A stretch of DNA of 64,000 nt from Mayamaea pseudoterrestris. Its lineage: Eukaryota; Bacillariophyta; Bacillariophyceae; Sellaphorales; Sellaphoraceae. The stretch's first letter is position 1. The number at the start of each line of letters is the position of its first letter. The stretch is from positions 248,001 through 312,000 of the forward strand of contig BROI01000026.1 of assembly GCA_027923505.1 (NCBI GenBank), written 5' to 3'. Under the pieces are notes generated by a model. The model ran no database searches, was not told the DNA's origin, and worked only from the letters and a program-made list of their open reading frames with translations. Of the stretch, positions 32,879 to 43,857 are shown one piece after another. Made by a program: the position numbers and the translations under genes.

Positions 32879-33418
32879 TGACCAGCACACAATCAGGTAT
32901 AATACTTACTGTATTGCACAGGTTGATGGCTTACGCTTGATTTAATACTATTGTGCAGCCACACCCAACACCATTAACGGAGCTACTATGTATGTCTGAC
33001 TAGAAGCCAATACGTGTAGAATGCTTAAAACTTACTGCTAGTCCAACCTGTTTGCGTCGCGCTCCCGCTGCAGGTCCATCTGCACCTTTTCACCTCAAGC
33101 TGCAATTCCGACAATTCATGATTTTTGCATAGGCCTTCTGCATCATTGCATATCCATGCAGAAGGCCAATGGGCAAACTAAATATAACGGCAGAGTAGCA
33201 AGATTGCCTGGAGTACCGTTACGACCTCGTTTGAAAGAAAACGGCAACTGTGACGAGGCGTTGACAAGACTGAAAGAACCCGGTGATGTGTTTTGGACGC
33301 TCTTTCGAAAAAGGCAATCAACGCCCGCACTTCTTGTTCGGAACGAATCATTGCGGATCTTTGAGTCTGGTGATTGACTGATTGTTGCGCGAGTAGCTTC
33401 ACTTTTCGCAAGTACACC
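32879..33418. other. Intergenic with a perfect 12-bp-stem hairpin
   Basis: No gene is seen. An exact inverted repeat GGCCTTCTGCAT (33132-33143) / ATGCAGAAGGCC (33156-33167) around a 12-nt loop lies about 250 bp before the next ATG. It may be an RNA hairpin or a protein-binding dyad. Confidence 0.6.
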
Positions 33419-35572
33419 ATGATGCGCTTTATCAATCTCTTGTTACTCGTGCTATCCATCAGCAAGTCTGTGAGCGGCCAGTTCAAATGCACTTTGAACG
33501 CGTCGGATGAAGACACTTGCCTCAAAACCGTCGGAGACGATGATGCTCACTGCGCATGGTGTTCGCTCGGAGGCTTTGCTTTTTGCATGAGTGAGCAAGC
33601 GGCCGAAGCAATGGAGCAGACGTTGCATGCGGAATGTGAACGATTTGGTGATAATGACGATGACGACAGCAAGAAGAGCGATGATGATCGCGTGGTTCCA
33701 CCGGGAGCGGACGATGTTTTTCCTTCCACGGACGATCAAGCTGCCGCGGATGATGACAAGCACAAGCCGAAATCCGATGACGACGCAGTAACTCCAACAG
33801 ATGATAATGTTCCTGACAACTTCTGGACTTGCTTGCAGGAAAAGGATCAGACGAAATGCGACAATCAAGGATGCGTTTGGTGCACGGCCAAGTCGGCTGG
33901 ATTTAGTCTGTGCATGGCTGGTCCGGCTGCGGAGCAAGCGGAAGGAAGCGACTTTTTTGAATGTGACAATAAGAACATTGCTGATGAGACTGTTATATTC
34001 GCTGTCGACCGTCTTGCTACAAGTCTTACTGATACTGCATCAGATCCGTTTGATGCCACATGCGTGAAAGCTTTTTTGGAGGAGCAAACCGAGGAAGCTT
34101 GCACATCAACGAGCGACCAGGATGGAGACTATTGCAAGTGGTGTTCGCTTGCTGGCATGACGAACCTTTGCTTGACGCCGGAGCAAGCCGACAAGGGACA
34201 AGCGTTGGGAATCACCTGTTTGGATTTTGACGCGAGTTTAGTCGCGCGCGGAGAATCAGAGCAAGCTATTCCTGCGCTATCAGCTCCACTGTACGACACT
34301 GCCTGCATGATGGCGCTTTTGCAGGATCATTCTGCAAGTGGTTGTGCTTCTGCAGTTGACTCTGATGGATCTCCGTGCGAATATTGCCCCATTTTGCAAG
34401 GCTCGCTCGACTTGTGCTTGACCTCGGACCAAGTATCGTTGCTCGAGCAGTCGGGCGTGTCTTGTGAGGCAAGTGAGGTTGAAATGCTGCATGATGATCC
34501 TTACGACACCTCCTGCATTGTGTCATCTTTGTCGGGCGCTAACAAGGATGCTTGCATCTCGACGATGGACGATGGTGGCAAGGCTTGTCGATACTGCAGC
34601 GTTGGCGGCGTCGCTTCAATTTGTTTGACGGATGCGCAGGCGGAATTGGCGGGTGGATATGGGCTTGAATGTGACGAAAATACTGCCGCTGGTCAGCTCC
34701 AAGACAATCCGTATGATGCATCATGCATTATGGCGTATTTGCAGGACCAATCGGAGGAGAGCTGCGTTTCAGCCTTGGATGAGGATGGTGACGCTTGTCA
34801 GTACTGTACCTTGCAGGGCGCTGTCAATTTGTGCTTGACTCCGTCGCAGGCGGACATTGCTGGTGGGTTGGGTGTTGAATGCAATGGTCGAAGTGTTGAT
34901 GCGGCTGCCATGGCGCAGGATACCCCATTGGAAGCGAATGATATCTTCGACATGACATGCGTCAAGGCCTACCTCAATGACCAGTCGAAGGATTTTTGCC
35001 GATCGACGATGGACGGGGATGGAGCAGTCTGCAAGTGGTGTCATACGCCGCAATCGGGAGACATTTGCTTCACGGAGACGCAGGGCGATATTGCAAGTCA
35101 GATTGGTATGTGGTGCGACGATGACGAGATGACTGCACCAGATAATTCGCAGGTCGACATTCCCGATGACTTTTGGACTTGTCTCCAAAACTTTGACGAG
35201 ACTGGTTGTAGCTCAAGCTGTACTTGGTGTGACACTAGTGTCGGCATGGGATTTTGCCTGTCTACGCCGGTGGCGCAATCGACCAAGGAATGCACATTCT
35301 TTGACTGCAATTTCAAGGGCGAGGAAACGGTAGAAGCGAACGAGTTGGTTGTTGCCTCTAGCGATCTTTATGACCCAACTTGCTTGGGCGCGGGCATGGG
35401 ATCAGATGACGCTGAAAGTGTCTGCAACTCGACAATGGACAGCTCTGGAAGTAGGTGCGTCTGGTGCAATGTTGCGGGTGTATTTGGTGTTTGCGTTTCG
35501 GATGACCAAGCTTCCATGATGGGAGACTATCTACAATGCAACTCTGCGACGCCTTTGATCGCTGTCGCATGA
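33419..35572 (+). CDS. Secreted nine-module cysteine-rich repeat protein
   Basis: The ATG at 33419 (a second ATG follows directly) gives 717 aa starting MMRFINLLLLVLSISKSVSG, a clear signal peptide. The rest is nine modules of about 55-65 residues, each with six cysteines in the order C-x(10-14)-C-x(6-11)-C-x2-C-x(7-9)-C-x(13-17)-C. The central CxWC/CxYC pair is the best conserved (CAWC, CVWC, CKWC, CEYC, CRYC, CQYC, CKWC, CTWC, CVWC). An aspartate-rich linker rich in DDD/SDDD lies between modules 1 and 2 (about residues 75-135), and the whole protein is strongly acidic. Modules 2 and 8 are a shorter variant starting with DxFWTCLQ. I do not recognise the family. Secretion, many disulphides and acidity suggest a cell-wall or extracellular protein, perhaps cation binding, but that is inference. 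Confidence 0.85.
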   Translation: MMRFINLLLLVLSISKSVSGQFKCTLNASDEDTCLKTVGDDDAHCAWCSLGGFAFCMSEQAAEAMEQTLHAECERFGDNDDDDSKKSDDDRVVPPGADDVFPSTDDQAAADDDKHKPKSDDDAVTPTDDNVPDNFWTCLQEKDQTKCDNQGCVWCTAKSAGFSLCMAGPAAEQAEGSDFFECDNKNIADETVIFAVDRLATSLTDTASDPFDATCVKAFLEEQTEEACTSTSDQDGDYCKWCSLAGMTNLCLTPEQADKGQALGITCLDFDASLVARGESEQAIPALSAPLYDTACMMALLQDHSASGCASAVDSDGSPCEYCPILQGSLDLCLTSDQVSLLEQSGVSCEASEVEMLHDDPYDTSCIVSSLSGANKDACISTMDDGGKACRYCSVGGVASICLTDAQAELAGGYGLECDENTAAGQLQDNPYDASCIMAYLQDQSEESCVSALDEDGDACQYCTLQGAVNLCLTPSQADIAGGLGVECNGRSVDAAAMAQDTPLEANDIFDMTCVKAYLNDQSKDFCRSTMDGDGAVCKWCHTPQSGDICFTETQGDIASQIGMWCDDDEMTAPDNSQVDIPDDFWTCLQNFDETGCSSSCTWCDTSVGMGFCLSTPVAQSTKECTFFDCNFKGEETVEANELVVASSDLYDPTCLGAGMGSDDAESVCNSTMDSSGSRCVWCNVAGVFGVCVSDDQASMMGDYLQCNSATPLIAVA

Positions 35573-36415: not shown

Positions 36416-39400
36416 CTAACGTTCTACCGTTGGCGGAAGTCGCACAGATTTTTTGCTAGAGGCAGAGAAATAACCCACGGCTTCCTCGCCCTCGGCAATA
36501 GGTTGTGTGTCGCTTGAACGTCGCATCGATGTCACCTTTACTGTATCATCTGGTAGTGATATATCATATGTCACAGGCTGTGGTGCCCATATAGAGCTGA
36601 ATTGGCGGCGCGTCCACTGAGCATCCGGGGCTGGATTCACACCACCTACATCCAATGGATGGGCAGGCTTCGAGTGCAACGAGAAAACATTTACACCTGC
36701 AGCGACGAAATAGTCGGCGCGAGACAACTCTTCCATGAGTGGACGCCGCGATCTGTCACGTCTCAAGCACATCTTGATCATACTTCGAGCGTGCGAGTCC
36801 ACGTGAGACGCGTGCTTGTCGGCGAAGAGTGGGTCGGCATCATCTGCCGCATCGTCGCGTACATTGAAGTTGACAATAGTTTGACGCGTCGCATCGTCGT
36901 CAGCTTCAAAAAACGGCGGTCGTCCTGTGAGGCACTGGTAGGTAAGGCACCCCAGCGCCCACGTGTCAGCCTGCTTAGTCGGCACTGCTCCCATTACAAC
37001 TTCCGGCGGAAGATACGAGGTGGTGCCTTCAATACGGTCATCTTCTTCGCTCTCTTCCAGGTCGTTCTCAGTCAACGATTTACCCTTCATTGTACCGCGC
37101 CCTTGTGGCTTCCAGTCACCGTCGCGTAGATTCGTTAAAAGGCCTTTTGCAATTGATCGAACCATCGCCTTTGCCTCATGCGTGACTGGTCGGCAGCCAC
37201 CAAAGTCGGTAATTTTAATATGACCAGTCTCTGTGATCAATATGTTCTCAGCTTTAAGATCACTGTATACCAGCCCGATGTCATGTATACTCATCAACGC
37301 CGCAATGACAGATCCAACAACGTATCGAGTCGACGGGTCGTCCAGCGAGCCGTGTCTTCGAAGCAGCGAATGCAAATCTCCCCGACTGGCATACTCAAGA
37401 ACCAAGTAGGCACCATCTTGGAAGCGGAAGCTCGAAATCAACCGAGCAATACCAGGATGCGACAAAATGCGAAGAACAGCAATCTCCCGTTGCACCGACG
37501 ATTCATACCCGAGCTCTCTGATCTTTTCTGTCGAAATTACTTTGACAGCATATTCAGGCCAATAGGATCGAGTCGTAGTCTTGTCAATCAAGCGGGCATA
37601 CCGAACCTTGCCAAAAGCACCTTGTCCCAAGTCGTGACCAAACACTAGGTCATGAAACTTTAAATCCGGTAGCAATGTTGGCGTCTCGGCCATTTGGACT
37701 TTGCTCCAAGACGATGCGCCTGTCTCTTCCTCTGGCGGTTTCATTGCATCCATGTACTGTTTAACATATTCTAGCCCTGACAACGTCGCGTGTGTAGCCG
37801 CCTGTTCATTTGATTCATTCACCGAGGAAGGCGCAATCGGCCGCTTGTGCCTCAATGACGCACCAACTACGGGCGGTACTGACTTTACTGCCCACGGTGC
37901 TACGCCAGTAATAGTAGATGGTGGGTTGACTCTACCAGCAGTTGACGTAGCCCACGGTGCTACGCCGGTAACAGTCAATGGCGGCTGCGAGCCGCCACTT
38001 GCACACGGAGATTTGCCGCGATCAATCTGGCTGCGTGCCGCTGGAGGAGGCATCATTGGCGACGATTGGCCAGGCGGTTTCCATGATCCCATGCCAGCCT
38101 TGAGCGAAGTGTCCAGAATAACAGTTTCCTGTGGACCAGTCGGAAAAATGCGCGTTGGCTCCCTTGACGTGTGGGCACCACTTAATGTGCTGTTCAGAGC
38201 CATTTCGGCGAAGAGCAAATTTGCAACTTGCTCAAATATTCGTTCGTTCTGCTTTTGCAAATCCTTCAGGACATGGTAAGTCATTTTCCTTACAGTTGGA
38301 TTCCAAGACGGCTGTTGTCTCACCAGGGCAGGAAGCAGTATTTCGATTGACGCTTGGTAATGTCTTGCGATTATACGCTGAAAGCTTTTGTTCTTGAAAA
38401 ATTCTAGAGCTCGCTCGGCTACTCGTGAATGATCCGACGTCATGCATCGTTTCAGAACAGTCAAGAACTTGTCCAACCAAGCGATCGTGCATTCATCATC
38501 CTCGCTCCACAAGCTCATATACGTATCCACTTCATGTAGCAGCAATACTTGTTTGGGTGTATTACCAACCAGCGGAAATATGTCAGTGTGTAACAAGGCG
38601 ACAATCGTCAGTGGTACCAACGACCTTTTCTTTTGCAACAAAATGGCCGTGCACTTGACGAGCGGCTCATGATACAGTTCCAGCACAGATACTTGATCGC
38701 GCCAAAGTACCATGGCATCCGGTTTGTGCAAAGGTATCAGTAACTGTACAAGTAGCTGCTCGTGCGAATCTTGAACCTTCGACACACCCAGCAAAATCCG
38801 AAGCAAGACTTGGAGCGTGATTCGAATCCCCGCTGCCCGTGTATTTTCCTGCCGCAATCCGGACGACGTCGCGGTAGTCGAGTAAATATACTGCGTCCAG
38901 ACTTGTCCCAGCAGCTTTCTGCATACTAGGCGTTGCGTAGCACTGGATACAAGGTAGATATGCCCGCACACCCTTTCTAATTCCTGCATGTGCTGGTCCC
39001 ATTCATGTTGGAAGCGCTGAGTGACAGTTTGCGCAAGCGTATACTGCTCGAGGCGAGATTTTGGATCGGAAAGCTCCGTCGTCGCTGGTTGTTGCGTCTT
39101 GCTCCCAGCAAGTGATACTATTGCGTTAGCCTTTGTCAATGACTGTGTGAATGAATTCATTTGCGACTGCAGAAAGGGCAAGTTTTGAATGTATTTAAAG
39201 AGAGCCTTGATGATTGCAGTGTCGCCCAGACGCAGTAAATGGGCGAAGAGTCCACTGCAATAAATTGCATCATCATAATCATTATATTTTGTCGTAACAT
39301 TAACAGGATCGACGCTCGCAGCTTCAGCTTCTGAATTCTTCATGTTAAGATCCATCCAATAGACGAGCCATTGCGTCGCTCGAACGGCATCCAATATGTT

Positions 39401-39685
39401 TGGCAAAGAAATCTCTTGGGCGCTCAAACTTGATTCTACAAAGGGATTCGCTCTTGTCAGCGTCATGGATGCCGCATCATTTGGACTATAAACGTTGACA
39501 ATCCAATCAATGATGCTTTGGTAGGTTTCCCGAGAAAGTGGAGCAGAGTCTTCGACGGTGGTTCCTTGGTAGTTGACATTGTCGTCGTTGCAGCCGAGCC
39601 AGTTCTCAAAGCATTGCATGACATCCTGCGACTCGGGAACGTATACTCCAACCGTTTCGAGTATTTCAATTAGATGCTGCTGCAT
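36416..39685 (-). CDS. PP2A B56-like repeat region fused to a Ser/Thr protein kinase
   Basis: This is one uninterrupted 1089-aa frame. Residues from about 140, and most clearly 300-495, match the HEAT-like B56 (PPP2R5) regulatory subunit family: LLIPLHK, LYHEPLVKC, HEVDTYMSL, VAERALEFFKN and WNPTVRKMTYHVLK line up in order. A low-complexity linker (about 495-670) contains two copies of TGVAPWA. Residues 677 to about 993 form a protein kinase. Its parts are the glycine loop GQGAFGKV, VAIK-equivalent YAVKVIS, catalytic loop VYSDLKAENI (Asp kept, HRD replaced by YSD) and DFGG. It also has an acidic insert in the activation segment and GTTSYLPPEV. The kinase is nearest PDK1/AGC-like enzymes by eye. 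B56 proteins normally target PP2A phosphatase to substrates, so this one chain may join a phosphatase-targeting module to a kinase. Divergent neighbour is dapA. Confidence 0.85.
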   Translation of the reverse strand: MQQHLIEILETVGVYVPESQDVMQCFENWLGCNDDNVNYQGTTVEDSAPLSRETYQSIIDWIVNVYSPNDAASMTLTRANPFVESSLSAQEISLPNILDAVRATQWLVYWMDLNMKNSEAEAASVDPVNVTTKYNDYDDAIYCSGLFAHLLRLGDTAIIKALFKYIQNLPFLQSQMNSFTQSLTKANAIVSLAGSKTQQPATTELSDPKSRLEQYTLAQTVTQRFQHEWDQHMQELERVCGHIYLVSSATQRLVCRKLLGQVWTQYIYSTTATSSGLRQENTRAAGIRITLQVLLRILLGVSKVQDSHEQLLVQLLIPLHKPDAMVLWRDQVSVLELYHEPLVKCTAILLQKKRSLVPLTIVALLHTDIFPLVGNTPKQVLLLHEVDTYMSLWSEDDECTIAWLDKFLTVLKRCMTSDHSRVAERALEFFKNKSFQRIIARHYQASIEILLPALVRQQPSWNPTVRKMTYHVLKDLQKQNERIFEQVANLLFAEMALNSTLSGAHTSREPTRIFPTGPQETVILDTSLKAGMGSWKPPGQSSPMMPPPAARSQIDRGKSPCASGGSQPPLTVTGVAPWATSTAGRVNPPSTITGVAPWAVKSVPPVVGASLRHKRPIAPSSVNESNEQAATHATLSGLEYVKQYMDAMKPPEEETGASSWSKVQMAETPTLLPDLKFHDLVFGHDLGQGAFGKVRYARLIDKTTTRSYWPEYAVKVISTEKIRELGYESSVQREIAVLRILSHPGIARLISSFRFQDGAYLVLEYASRGDLHSLLRRHGSLDDPSTRYVVGSVIAALMSIHDIGLVYSDLKAENILITETGHIKITDFGGCRPVTHEAKAMVRSIAKGLLTNLRDGDWKPQGRGTMKGKSLTENDLEESEEDDRIEGTTSYLPPEVVMGAVPTKQADTWALGCLTYQCLTGRPPFFEADDDATRQTIVNFNVRDDAADDADPLFADKHASHVDSHARSMIKMCLRRDRSRRPLMEELSRADYFVAAGVNVFSLHSKPAHPLDVGGVNPAPDAQWTRRQFSSIWAPQPVTYDISLPDDTVKVTSMRRSSDTQPIAEGEEAVGYFSASSKKSVRLPPTVER

Positions 39686-40085: not shown

Positions 40086-41500
40086 ATGATACGAAGGACG
40101 ATAACACAACATTTGCTGTTCCTTTGGGCTGCGATTTCGTCGATTGCGCAAGGTAAGATCCTGCTGCTGGTCGATTCTTGTGTCTCGTCGGCTCGTCGCT
40201 CGTCGTCGGCTGTCACACGCGTCGGAATGCTCCCCTTTTTTCGTTTTACACATTATGGCGAAATTAGATTTTGATATTGTAGAAGCTTTTTGAAAGCCGA
40301 GAGATGAAGGCGCCGATTTTGATTCTTACTCGACAGTCAGTTATCGTCAGCTTTCGGTTAGGTCCACGCTCTCACAATGTATTTTCCTTCCGATAATTGT
40401 TACAGGATTTACTTTTCTCTCCACGTGTGACAGATCAATACAAAGACGGACAGCTCTAAGGGCAAGCAATGCAAATGAATTTGTAAGTATTTTGATTGAC
40501 AGCGCAGTGACGTGCTCACCATGCCTTTGCAGTAGTATTCGTCGTCTTCGTGCGTCCTCCTGCATTCTGGCACGCTTCTAACAATTCAGTCGTCACTTTA
40601 TTACAGATCACTCTTCGACAAGGATCCACAGTTGCTCTTATAACGCCATTCACCGAGGCCGGTGCTGTCGACTATGTAGCCTTGGGTCGACTACTCGATT
40701 TTCACGTCGAAGCTGGGACCGACAATCTTTGCATTCTTGGAACAACTGCCGAAAGCGCTACCATGACCAAGGAAGAACAGAAGAAAGTCATGAAACTGGT
40801 TGTTGATAAGGTAAAGGGCCGAATTCCGATCATGGTTGGAACGGGAACGATAAATCCGGAGTCAGTCAAGGAAATGACCTTGCAGGCTATGGACATGGGT
40901 TGCGATGCTGCGCTCATTGTTACACCATATTATGTCAAGCCGCCGCAGAGAGGACTTGTAAAGCACTATTGGGCCATGGCCGACTTGGGCATGCCCGTTA
41001 TAATTTACAATGTACCGGGACGAACTGGCATTAACATTTTCGACGAAAGCATCGTGCTCGCATCCGAACACGAAAATATTGTAGGACTCAAGGATGCGAC
41101 TGGAGATTTGGCGAGATTGGATAGCATGCTCGAACTACTGGGCGAGAAGAAAAAGGAGTTTTTACTCTACAGTGGAGACGATGGAACGACTGCCGAATAT
41201 GTTTTAAAGGGAGGTGATGGTTGCATATCAGTGACGGCCAACCTGGCGCCGAAGGAAATGCATGACATGGTTGCAGCTGCGCTAGCAGGAGATGCTGACA
41301 CTGCGAAGGCAATAAACGATCGGTTAGACGGTCTGCACACAAATCTGTTTTGCGAAAGCAATCCCATGCCGACCAAGTGGGCGGCCAAGGAGCTTGGACT
41401 AATTGACACTGCATACTGTCGACCGCCTCTTGACGTTTTTGACGAGGCAAACCTCGGATTAAAAGTTACAGATGCATTAAGGAAAGCCGGCTTAGTCTAA
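40086..41500 (+). CDS. dapA: 4-hydroxy-tetrahydrodipicolinate synthase (DapA), plastid, three exons
   Basis: The exons are 40086-40152, 40406-40482 and 40607-41500 (345 aa); both introns have GTAAG donors and CAG acceptors and all phases fit. Exon 1 encodes a signal peptide, MIRRTITQHLLFLWAAISSI, ending AQG. Exon 2 then starts with Phe and a Ser/Thr/Arg-rich stretch (FTFLSTCDRSIQRRTALRAS), the bipartite layout for secondary-plastid import. Exon 3 is a full DapA TIM barrel. GTTAES holds the catalytic Thr94-Thr95, YNVPGRTG holds Tyr182 and the substrate-binding Arg, and GLKDATGD holds the Schiff-base Lys210. The enzyme condenses pyruvate with aspartate semialdehyde in the first committed step of the diaminopimelate route to lysine. 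Family enzymes are often lysine-inhibited tetramers. The N-terminus given here is an inference from splice signals; the catalytic exon is certain. Confidence 0.9.
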
Positions 41501-41593: not shown

Positions 41594-43198
41594 TTATTTG
41601 GCTAGCAGCTTTTTGGGATAGTCTGCCTTGTCAAGCCCCTTTAGAGAATATAAACGAGCAGCTCGTTCTTTTAAAGAGCCACCGCACTTGACTCCCATCG
41701 CCGTCAGTGCGCCCTTCAGTTTCTCTAGTCCGAGAGTTTCAAGTTGCTCAGCTGACTCATATTCGTCGAGTTTTAGGGGTTCAATTGCAAAATCAGCACC
41801 CGCGATACTTCCCGGCGCTCGTGAAAGTTCATTGACGTTTGCTTCTGCTTTTAGGATCTCTAACGATGATGCATCTGGATCTATCGTTCCAAAGGACAAA
41901 TTCGAGTCCTTGTCGGGGTTATCGTAAGTTTCCTTCGCAAGCAACGTCCCGACGATGACAGCATCATCGTGTCTATACTGCGTTTGGTCCGACAAAAACC
42001 GGAGCTCAGTAATCTCGCCAGGATTACAGCTGATTGCGGGGTAAATATGAAAGGCACCTCTATTCGCCTTAATCTGGTATGCCACACCAAGATCCTTGCC
42101 ATTCAGCGAAAAAGATACTTCACCAGTATCGCCATCATATAGGCAGCCAACAACATCGCCCGCCTTGAAATCTTCCGAACCATACGGAGTATTCCTTTCT
42201 CCAAACAGCTTGATTCGCCGGCTCGGATCATACGCCCAACTGTACAAGTCGTCTCCCACGCCGTCACCAGTCGAAGAATCTGGCGAAAAGCCTGCCGTGG
42301 CCCAACCAATTTGGCAAATGCCACCAGTTAGTAACCGCGCTTCGTAGTAGAGTATAAATTTACTGCTAGCATCAGTATTTTGTTCAAGTAAAATACCGAC
42401 AGTGCAAAAGTTGGAAGGACTCTGCATGCACCAACATCCATCTTCCAATGCCAAAACGACATCACCCGACAAGGTGATTAATGCCTCTGGTGGAGCAATG
42501 TCTTGCGTCTTTTGGCGCTTGGAAGCTCTTAAACCTTCCTGCAGTGCACTAAGCGTATTCTGCGAGGCCTTCACTGAAAGTTGATCAGCGCGATCCACAT
42601 ACTCGTGCACTTGTCGATCAATCGCCTCTTTTGCCTGCTCCTTTGCAGACTTCTCCGCATCCAATTCTCTTTTCCATGCATGGAACTGCTTGTGCATTTG
42701 TGACTGTTGCTTCTTTTGCGATACCTCCGCCCAGCTAGGTAGTTGCAGATACCAACCCGGCGCACCGACGCTCGATTTCATTAATGCCTTGGCCATATCC
42801 TCCTTTGTGGCAACTCCGGCTTGTATCTTATCATTCCAATCCTTCCATTCTTGATAGGCAACTTGATCGTTTACGTGCTTGAGTCGGCGACCCTGCAGAT
42901 CGCGGCAGGCGCCAAAGTCAGTTGTTGCTTTGGCACCTGCCTGCTTGGCCGCCCCCTTTAGAAGCGTTCCAAAACCTCCCTTGCCACCTCGAATGCAAGA
43001 AACAATGTTAACTGAATAAAATGAGCATGGTGACAATGCTAATGATTGCGATTTGCTAATTGAGAGAGTCAGGAATTGTCGAGGCCAGTGTGTCTCACGA
43101 CAAACTCGGTCGAGGACGGATTCTGTCGTCGGGCATTCAGACGATGAAAATACAAGGGTCCTGCTCTGAAAGCTAACCAAGATATCGTTTCGGCGCAT
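41594..43198 (-). CDS. SDE2: SDE2-like genome maintenance/splicing protein with SPRY and SAP domains
   Basis: The ATG at 43198 gives 534 aa. Residues 1-72 form a ubiquitin-like domain that ends in the processing site CIRGG/KGGFGTLL, the unmistakable mark of SDE2. Deubiquitinases are known to cut after the double glycine (here Gly71-Gly72) and release a Lys-starting C-terminal part. The next block, FGACRDLQGRRLKHVND...YQEW, is the conserved SDE2 region. A coiled-coil-like charged stretch (about 160-215) follows, then a SPRY domain (about 230-410; GGICQIGWAT, YSWAYD, GDVVGCLYD, VSFSLNGKDLG). The C-terminus has a SAP motif (LKGALTAMGVKCGGSLKERAARLYSL), as in animal SDE2. Known roles are intron-specific splicing in yeast and PCNA/replication-stress control in mammals. 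The inserted SPRY domain is not part of the human protein. Confidence 0.88.
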   Translation of the reverse strand: MRRNDILVSFQSRTLVFSSSECPTTESVLDRVCRETHWPRQFLTLSISKSQSLALSPCSFYSVNIVSCIRGGKGGFGTLLKGAAKQAGAKATTDFGACRDLQGRRLKHVNDQVAYQEWKDWNDKIQAGVATKEDMAKALMKSSVGAPGWYLQLPSWAEVSQKKQQSQMHKQFHAWKRELDAEKSAKEQAKEAIDRQVHEYVDRADQLSVKASQNTLSALQEGLRASKRQKTQDIAPPEALITLSGDVVLALEDGCWCMQSPSNFCTVGILLEQNTDASSKFILYYEARLLTGGICQIGWATAGFSPDSSTGDGVGDDLYSWAYDPSRRIKLFGERNTPYGSEDFKAGDVVGCLYDGDTGEVSFSLNGKDLGVAYQIKANRGAFHIYPAISCNPGEITELRFLSDQTQYRHDDAVIVGTLLAKETYDNPDKDSNLSFGTIDPDASSLEILKAEANVNELSRAPGSIAGADFAIEPLKLDEYESAEQLETLGLEKLKGALTAMGVKCGGSLKERAARLYSLKGLDKADYPKKLLAK

Positions 43199-43857
43199 TG
43201 TTTCATATAAAAAGAATATGAAAGGTACGGCAGGCACGCAGGAGTATTGGACGCGTTCAAGTTGTGGTGTGGGGTGCTCGTGTCGATCATCCGAATCATC
43301 CGAATTGATCCATGTCGCAAGGTTAGCCGATGTTTCATACTATAGCCTCGTATGACGTAATTGACACTGGCACTCGTTTCGTATTATAGCCTTGCGACGT
43401 AATTGACACTGGCACTCGTTTCATACTATTGCCTTGTGACGTAATTGACAGTGGCACTCGTTTCATACTATTGCCTTGTGACTTAATTGACACTGGCACT
43501 CGTTTCGTAGTATTGCCTGCTGACGTACTGTATCAGGAATGGTGTACTCGAGTAGTTGAGACCTATTCATCCATTCCATCTCGAATGGTAGTCCAACGCC
43601 ATCATCTTGGTCCCTTGCAACATCAACCATCAGCTAGTCGATATACCATCCCATATTGTGCATCTAGTGTATGAAACGTTCAGGAGTGTCGCTGGTTTTA
43701 ATTTACTTGATGCTTGGAGCTTGTCGATTCGTCGCCTCCTTTCGACCAGCACTTGTTACTTGTTCCATCCGTTCGTCCAACCAAACTTATTAGAGTACCG
43801 GCACACTTACAATCAGCCGCAACGAGTAGCACGGCCAGAATAGTATCAAATAATGAA
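43199..43857. other. Intergenic with minisatellite; no gene
   Basis: Apart from the 42-bp minisatellite listed separately, I see no gene or RNA here. It contains the 5' flanks of SDE2 and of the decayed Sua5 gene. Confidence 0.5.
43333..43530. repeat. 42-bp minisatellite, about 4.5 copies
   Basis: GACGTAATTGACACTGGCAC landmarks or close variants start at 43354, 43396, 43438, 43480 and 43522, exactly 42 bp apart. The unit also contains CTCGTTTCATACTATTGCC. Each unit holds a GACGTAA CRE-like core. It lies upstream of SDE2 on the other strand and of the decayed Sua5 gene. Confidence 0.93.

Follow-up and report, generated by a model that had tools for sequence, protein, structure and literature searches.

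A B56-derived module joined to a PDK1/AGC-like protein kinase in Mayamaea pseudoterrestris and other algae, and a possible in-chain role for its peptide groove

The stretch of DNA analysed here, hereafter the window, comprises 64,000 nucleotides from the diatom Mayamaea pseudoterrestris (assembly GCA_027923505.1, contig BROI01000026.1, positions 248,001 to 312,000), and its minus strand carries a gene whose predicted product joins a relative of the B56 regulatory subunits of protein phosphatase 2A (PP2A) to a protein kinase. An earlier note on this DNA had described one uninterrupted frame of 1089 codons holding a B56-type region and a kinase, and this description holds: the frame (36416..39685) is single, without intron or internal stop, and Pfam recognizes both B56 (PF01603, E=4.6e-27, residues 272-489) and Pkinase (PF00069, E=1.3e-51, split in two stretches) in its 1089-residue product. 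An NCBIfam scan of the protein returned no family above cut-off. The B56 match covers positions 189-386 of the 413-position profile and thus the C-terminal half of the domain in M. pseudoterrestris; the first half of the module is divergent here, its helices being an AlphaFold prediction. The features of the gene are as follows.

36416..39685, minus strand: whole coding frame, 1089 amino acids, with an ATG start and its stop codon at 36416-36418
38180..39685, minus strand: B56-derived helical (HEAT-like) module, residues 1-502, from the Pfam match on 272-489, the AlphaFold helices and the longer B56 match in non-diatom orthologues
38762..39007, minus strand: peptide-groove residues 227-308, in which Y244, R252, R256, I297 and H308 correspond to B56gamma Y190, R197, R201, I231 and H243 (roles from PMC4930772)
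38681..38719, minus strand: family-specific insert DAMVLWRDQVSVL, residues 323-335, from WRDQ conservation and its lack in four canonical B56 chains aligned
37793..38179, minus strand: linker predicted to be disordered, residues 503-631, from an AlphaFold block at pLDDT 30-47 over 501-630
37949..37984, minus strand: linker repeat 1, PPLTVTGVAPWA, residues 568-579, from the repeat count across fused rows
37889..37924, minus strand: linker repeat 2, PPSTITGVAPWA, residues 588-599, from the same count
36707..37657, minus strand: protein kinase domain, non-RD, residues 677-993, from Pfam, aligned rows and the profile match to solved kinases
37028..37186, minus strand: acidic insert in the activation segment, residues 834-886, from the two-stretch Pfam match and the alignment
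36575..36610, minus strand: tail motif RRQFSSIWAPQP, residues 1026-1037, from aligned rows
36467..36508, minus strand: tail site 1, TQPIAEGEEAVGYF (IxE motif), residues 1060-1073, from column conservation and pLDDT 95 for 1061-1070
36422..36439, minus strand: C-terminal LPPTVE, residues 1083-1088, near the place of LxxIxE in many relatives, with no strict match here

A homologue search with the window protein found 351 proteins, of which the best 120, the window protein itself among them, are described here, with the other 231 lying outside this set. The B56 and kinase Pfam domains are both present in all 120 rows (119 besides the window protein), most of which align over 95-100% of its 1089 residues. 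Three MMETSP transcript records in this set that are called complete (P0069, P0070 and P0102) hold both domains, so that transcripts of relatives do span the linker, as the single chain of the earlier note implied. The linker itself contains a TGVAPW-type repeat, in one to four copies, in 146/146 rows that hold both flanks; the repeats, PPxTxTGVAPWA in the window (37889-37984), are strikingly conserved though predicted to be disordered and, together with an IxE/LxxIxE-like tail described below, are additions beyond that note. The single intronless frame, the conserved linker repeats and the transcript records refute, for the family, the notion that two neighbouring genes were merged by a gene-model or assembly error. 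The joining of B56 to a kinase is a real, old fusion, neither a chance event nor a mis-join.

The fusion is widely distributed. Named fused homologues among the matches listed include Fistulifera, Cylindrotheca, Nitzschia, Seminavis, Cyclotella, Thalassiosira, Epithemia and others, the seven genera given being ones we take to be diatoms. A search with the kinase half (best 120 of 1983 matches) gave matches in Triparma columacea, Triparma retinervis, Phaeothamnion confervicola and Durusdinium trenchii (P0192), and a profile search built from non-diatom members (best 120 of 1072 matches) recovered fused proteins from four brown algae, namely Discosporangium, Choristocarpus, Scytosiphon and Ectocarpus. 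The last search rules out a fusion confined to diatoms. Fused members P0240 and P0251 are related to the Durusdinium record, and we call such unnamed sequences dinoflagellate-like because the tail IWTVM is common to them and that record; with these members, the suggestion that the arrangement might be stramenopile-specific finds no support. In five non-diatom fused proteins the B56 match spans about two thirds of the profile, as illustrated by P0252 (119-390 of 413, E 7.6e-54) and Choristocarpus (117-385, 3.6e-50), and three of the nine proteins scanned (P0179, P0196 and P0225), whose sequences start late in the domain, gave no B56 match.

The domain layout is as unusual as had been supposed. 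The pair is already known from names given at source, in that P0091 and P0092, which share it, are called 'Protein kinase domain/Protein phosphatase 2A regulatory B subunit (B56 family)', which are domain labels only. We found no description of an algal B56-kinase fusion in the literature searched, whose coverage was partial and left most subscription journals outside. The available part of an oomycete kinome paper (PMC3019232) contains no B56-kinase protein, its one match to 'B56' being a reference number, and the single match in a Phaeodactylum paper (PMC9153171) is to cytochrome b560.

The kinase half has the residues expected of a catalyst. Its Gly-loop residues G687, G689, F691 and V694 are invariant in the 120 rows, K715 (the VAIK lysine), the alphaC glutamate E734, D809, K811 and N814 are each found in 120/120, and the DFG aspartate D827 in 119/120 with one gap. 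The catalytic loop of the window protein reads YSDLKAEN, as originally reported, and thus has a serine (position 808) in place of the HRD arginine by which RD kinases are defined; this position is G in 49 rows, A in 43, S in 12, F in 7 and V in 4, arginine falling outside the five commonest residues, so the HRD arginine is not kept in the fused kinase. Judged by these residues, the fused kinase is probably an active non-RD Ser/Thr kinase, in agreement with the earlier expectation of activity. That the domain is complete was also claimed, and Pfam recovers it, with the qualification that an acidic insert of ~53 residues (834-886) splits it between DFG and GTTSYLPPE.

By profile, the nearest solved kinase is PDK1 (183.9 bits, against 156.3 for the next, RSK), and a Foldseek search with the whole model places PDK1 at the top of the 50 rows shown, all of which are kinases. 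Support around the placement of the fused kinase is 55/52 in a tree that contains one PDK1 chain only. When the PDK1 chain was compared with the genome, with part of the kinase loci inspected, its best matches were an Aurora gene (159.8 bits) and a PKG gene (156.2 bits), and the fused kinase was the 13th row at 92.0 bits, in one segment, split by the insert. No PH domain, which PDK1 has at its C-terminus, was detected by the Pfam scan of the fused protein. Because support in the tree is low and PDK1 matches the Aurora and PKG genes first, we describe the fused kinase as PDK1/AGC-like, not as PDK1.

Two further observations concern kinase loci elsewhere in the genome. Two similar loci, AGC-like by eye, lie ~40 kb apart on one contig (G000:C6:75877-76764 and C6:115585-116477), and two kinase matches with identical scores on another single contig (G000:C24:417032 and C24:429528) represent a recent copy or an assembly duplication.

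Turning to the B56 half, its homology extends to solved structures, with residues 284-490 matching PPP2R5D at 2.1e-19 and residues 283-494 matching PPP2R5C chains; together with the Pfam match on 272-489, this places the region 300-495 in B56, as the earlier note had it. AlphaFold predicts the module to be nearly all helical, mostly at high pLDDT, and as the 50 Foldseek rows shown are all kinases, they provide no structural alignment of the module to B56. Between two of the B56 helices, the WRDQ insert is present in 117/120 rows and in none of the four canonical B56 chains aligned. A search of the genome gave two B56 matches, the fused gene and a complete canonical gene (546 bits, profile 2-413).

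How canonical B56 reads its targets is described in PMC4930772. In the B56gamma-BubR1 crystal, the Leu of the LxxIxE peptide sits among H187, S173, I227, T184 and E226, the Ile sits among H187, I231, Y190 and S230, and the Glu meets H243 and K240, while R197 holds the peptide main chain and R201 is proposed to meet BubR1 pSer676; in human B56gamma, H187A abolishes BubR1 binding (PMC4930772). We counted the equivalent residues in 104 fused rows aligned to B56 out of 266 proteins, 162 having failed a motif and length filter. Y190, R197 and R201 are kept in 97/97 covering rows, the I231 position is I or V in 104/104, and H243 is H in 73/104. In an 18-row subset, the 21 positions of 180-214 that are invariant in canonical B56 show a mean retention of only 34%, against which Y190, R197 and R201, retained without exception, are conspicuous. 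The complete pocket (H187, R188, Y190, R197, R201, I231, K240, H243) is not kept in the fused rows aligned. Canonical B56 from this genome, by comparison, retains each of the 13 pocket positions counted. As far as residue identities can tell, the B56 module keeps the Ile/Glu half of the LxxIxE groove.

We considered whether the module functions as a PP2A subunit in complex with A and C, placing the kinase and an opposing phosphatase in one complex. Its clear B56 homology by profile is as this would have it, as is the retention of the C-terminal-half invariants W382, N383, H255 and H264 (17-18/18 subset rows) and of E344 (14/18), the last of which, E420 in B56delta, lies near PP2A-C according to PMC7072873. 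Against it stands the acidic loop. In canonical B56 this loop (110-130) makes contact with PP2A-C close to the active site (PMC9398451), and PMC7072873 calls it critical for assembly of the holoenzyme, whereas its motif was counted in 0/124 fused rows with enough N-terminus, as compared with 4/4 canonical B56 chains used as a control. Because 105 of the 124 rows are diatom-like and poorly aligned in their N-terminal half, 'motif absent' is safer than 'loop deleted'; the non-diatom rows have an alignment gap at ~110-130 of B56, the place of the loop. Given the missing motif, the half-kept pocket and the separate complete canonical B56 gene, PP2A assembly by the fused module appears doubtful, and we regard the working-subunit explanation as unlikely. 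The B56 reading of the earlier note is retained for the homology and questioned for the function.

Downstream of the kinase, the tail has the form RRQxSxIWxPxP followed by site 1, IxE-x-x-E...F, whose I, E, E and F are conserved in 111, 116, 115 and 114 of the 120 rows. The residue four past the site-1 Ile, where Arg201 would meet BubR1 pSer676 in the complex described in PMC4930772, is acidic in 75/120. A pattern derived from site 1, and so partly circular, matched 242/247 tails, as compared with a shuffled mean of 18.3. We also applied a strict B56-binding pattern not derived from the fused family, [LFM]xx[ILV]xE, to all 247 tails, sorted by the residues that follow IW. It was counted directly in 142/247 tails overall: in 125/203 PQ-type (IWxPQ) tails of diatoms and Triparma (shuffled mean 13.4, max 24) and in 17/25 'other' tails (shuffled 2.2, max 6), 16 of which have it at site 1 itself. 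These 16 include the brown algae, in which site 1 is strict in 4/4, with LVTITE in Scytosiphon, LAIIVE in Ectocarpus, MMPIEE in Choristocarpus and, one register on, MSVVEE in Discosporangium. In diatom-like rows, site 1 is mostly without Leu, and the strict motif lies past it near the C-terminus, typically as LxxISE, in 61/115 of the first 120 rows (shuffled 3.9, max 9) and 59/108 other non-TVM rows (shuffled 3.1, max 9). From these motifs, the tail looks fit to plug into or recruit a phosphatase-type (B56) module.

The models add a structural hint. In the window protein, residues 1061-1070 (QPIAEGEEAV) have a mean pLDDT of 95, versus 61 before and 73 then 40 after, and for P0252, which belongs to another lineage, the model gives 90 and 92 over residues 961-980, versus 37 and 70 before and 50 after, the ordered segment holding LRPIPE (964-969). 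Brief high-confidence stretches flanked by lower values, as predicted here, resemble a docked motif.

From these patterns we infer docking in cis, regulation of the kinase and recruitment of PP2A-B56, and propose that the B56 module is an in-chain reader for the kinase's tail, with the Ile/Glu half of the groove kept and the acidic-loop motif lost; we put the probability of this at about 0.42. In this reading of the old fusion between a PDK1/AGC-like non-RD Ser/Thr kinase and a HEAT module derived from B56, the groove of that module would receive the C-terminal IxE motif of the same chain and keep the kinase in a single state. The latched tail would be freed by phosphorylation or by partner motifs that compete with it or are themselves phosphorylated. 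The strict LxxIxE near the C-terminus in many diatom relatives may also recruit ordinary PP2A-B56. The fuller history that this suggests is tentative and less probable than the in-chain reader itself: ochrophytes, and probably dinoflagellates, may have made a kinase switch in one chain by capturing a B56, disarming its phosphatase-docking loop and retaining its groove as a latch for an LxxIxE-type tail, the strict motif that recruits phosphatase having shifted C-terminally in diatoms, where Leu disappeared from the latch site along with the pocket that had received it.

Several results weigh against the in-chain reader or qualify it. H187 is kept in only 5/97 fused rows, and in the 18-row subset R188 is kept in 0/15 and K240 in 1/17. 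The strict motif is found in 0/19 TVM-type (IWTVM), dinoflagellate-like tails (shuffled 2.1) and is missing from 8/25 'other' tails (P0054, P0062, P0066, P0245, P0246, P0247, P0249 and P0250). The window protein's own tail has no strict LxxIxE, with LPPTVE at the C-terminus; the sole strict-pattern match in the protein is LIEILE at residue 5, inside a predicted helix. In its favour, Leu occupies the -3 position of site 1 in 5/5 rows with H187, as compared with L, F or M in 4/87 rows without it, a pairing that is suggestive only because the five H187 rows come from two lineages. Mutual information of the tail is -0.15 with the groove set, -0.24 with other B56 columns and, clearly higher, 0.17 with kinase columns, and 0.066 of random column sets reach the groove-set value. 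In the models, tail residues 1041-1050 are also fairly ordered (pLDDT 80), the window-protein and P0252 predictions are not independent since their alignments overlap, and the putative docking place follows from the IxE motif and the kept groove, pLDDT giving no location.

Some of this evidence bears on other roles for the tail. If the B56 module were a structural relic or scaffold that reads no peptide, the tail could pack on the kinase in the manner of an AGC C-tail; the profile proximity of the kinase to AGC-type PDK1, the conserved F at which the tail ends and its greater covariation with kinase columns all fit such an arrangement, but an FxxF hydrophobic-motif pattern is not among the commonest tail residues of the 120 rows, which led us to reject the AGC hydrophobic-motif reading of the tail, and the unchanged Y190, R197 and R201 would lack a clear reason. 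We consider the relic improbable. Overlapping in part with the in-chain reader is the possibility that the tail motifs work exclusively in trans and bring canonical PP2A-B56 to the kinase, as BubR1 does, while the fused module does something else. The frequency of strict motifs past site 1 in the first 120 rows and the intact pocket of the genome's canonical B56 accord with this, yet conservation is stronger at site 1 than at the later motif, and site 1 is mostly Leu-less in diatom-like rows and is the very segment that AlphaFold orders; an exclusively trans function seems to us the more improbable of these two roles.

The frames that flank the fused gene in the window were recognized by eye. 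A cysteine-rich repeat protein with an apparent signal peptide is encoded at 33374-35572 (+), a frame resembling dihydrodipicolinate synthase (DapA) lies at 40550-41500 (+), and a frame that seems to have a SPRY-type domain and a SAP-like C-terminal end is found at 41594-43237 (-).

The fused proteins share with PP2A B56/PPP2R5 the Pfam B56 match and the groove residues Y190, R197, R201 and I231, but they are without the acidic-loop motif, have mostly lost H187, R188 and K240, and have gained a WRDQ-type insert and a kinase. Likewise, they resemble PDK1 and other AGC kinases by profile and in the Foldseek rows shown, and differ from them in having no Pfam PH domain, a non-RD loop and the insert in the activation segment. 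We know of no domain kinship between BubR1/Bub1 and the fused proteins. As described in PMC4930772 and PMC10155811, BubR1, like Bub1 a kinase-type protein, has an LxxIxE that brings in PP2A-B56, whereas in the fused family a B56-derived module lies within the same chain. Engineered human Bub proteins that join kinase and PP2A-B56 activities disturb mitosis, according to PMC10155811, and for this reason a natural fused version is worth testing. If the in-chain reader is correct, the groove with which a major phosphatase reads its targets would now serve to regulate a kinase, and a single protein of diatoms and brown algae would combine kinase and phosphatase targeting. As a natural and conserved joined protein, it offers a direct test of how the coupling of kinase and phosphatase can work.

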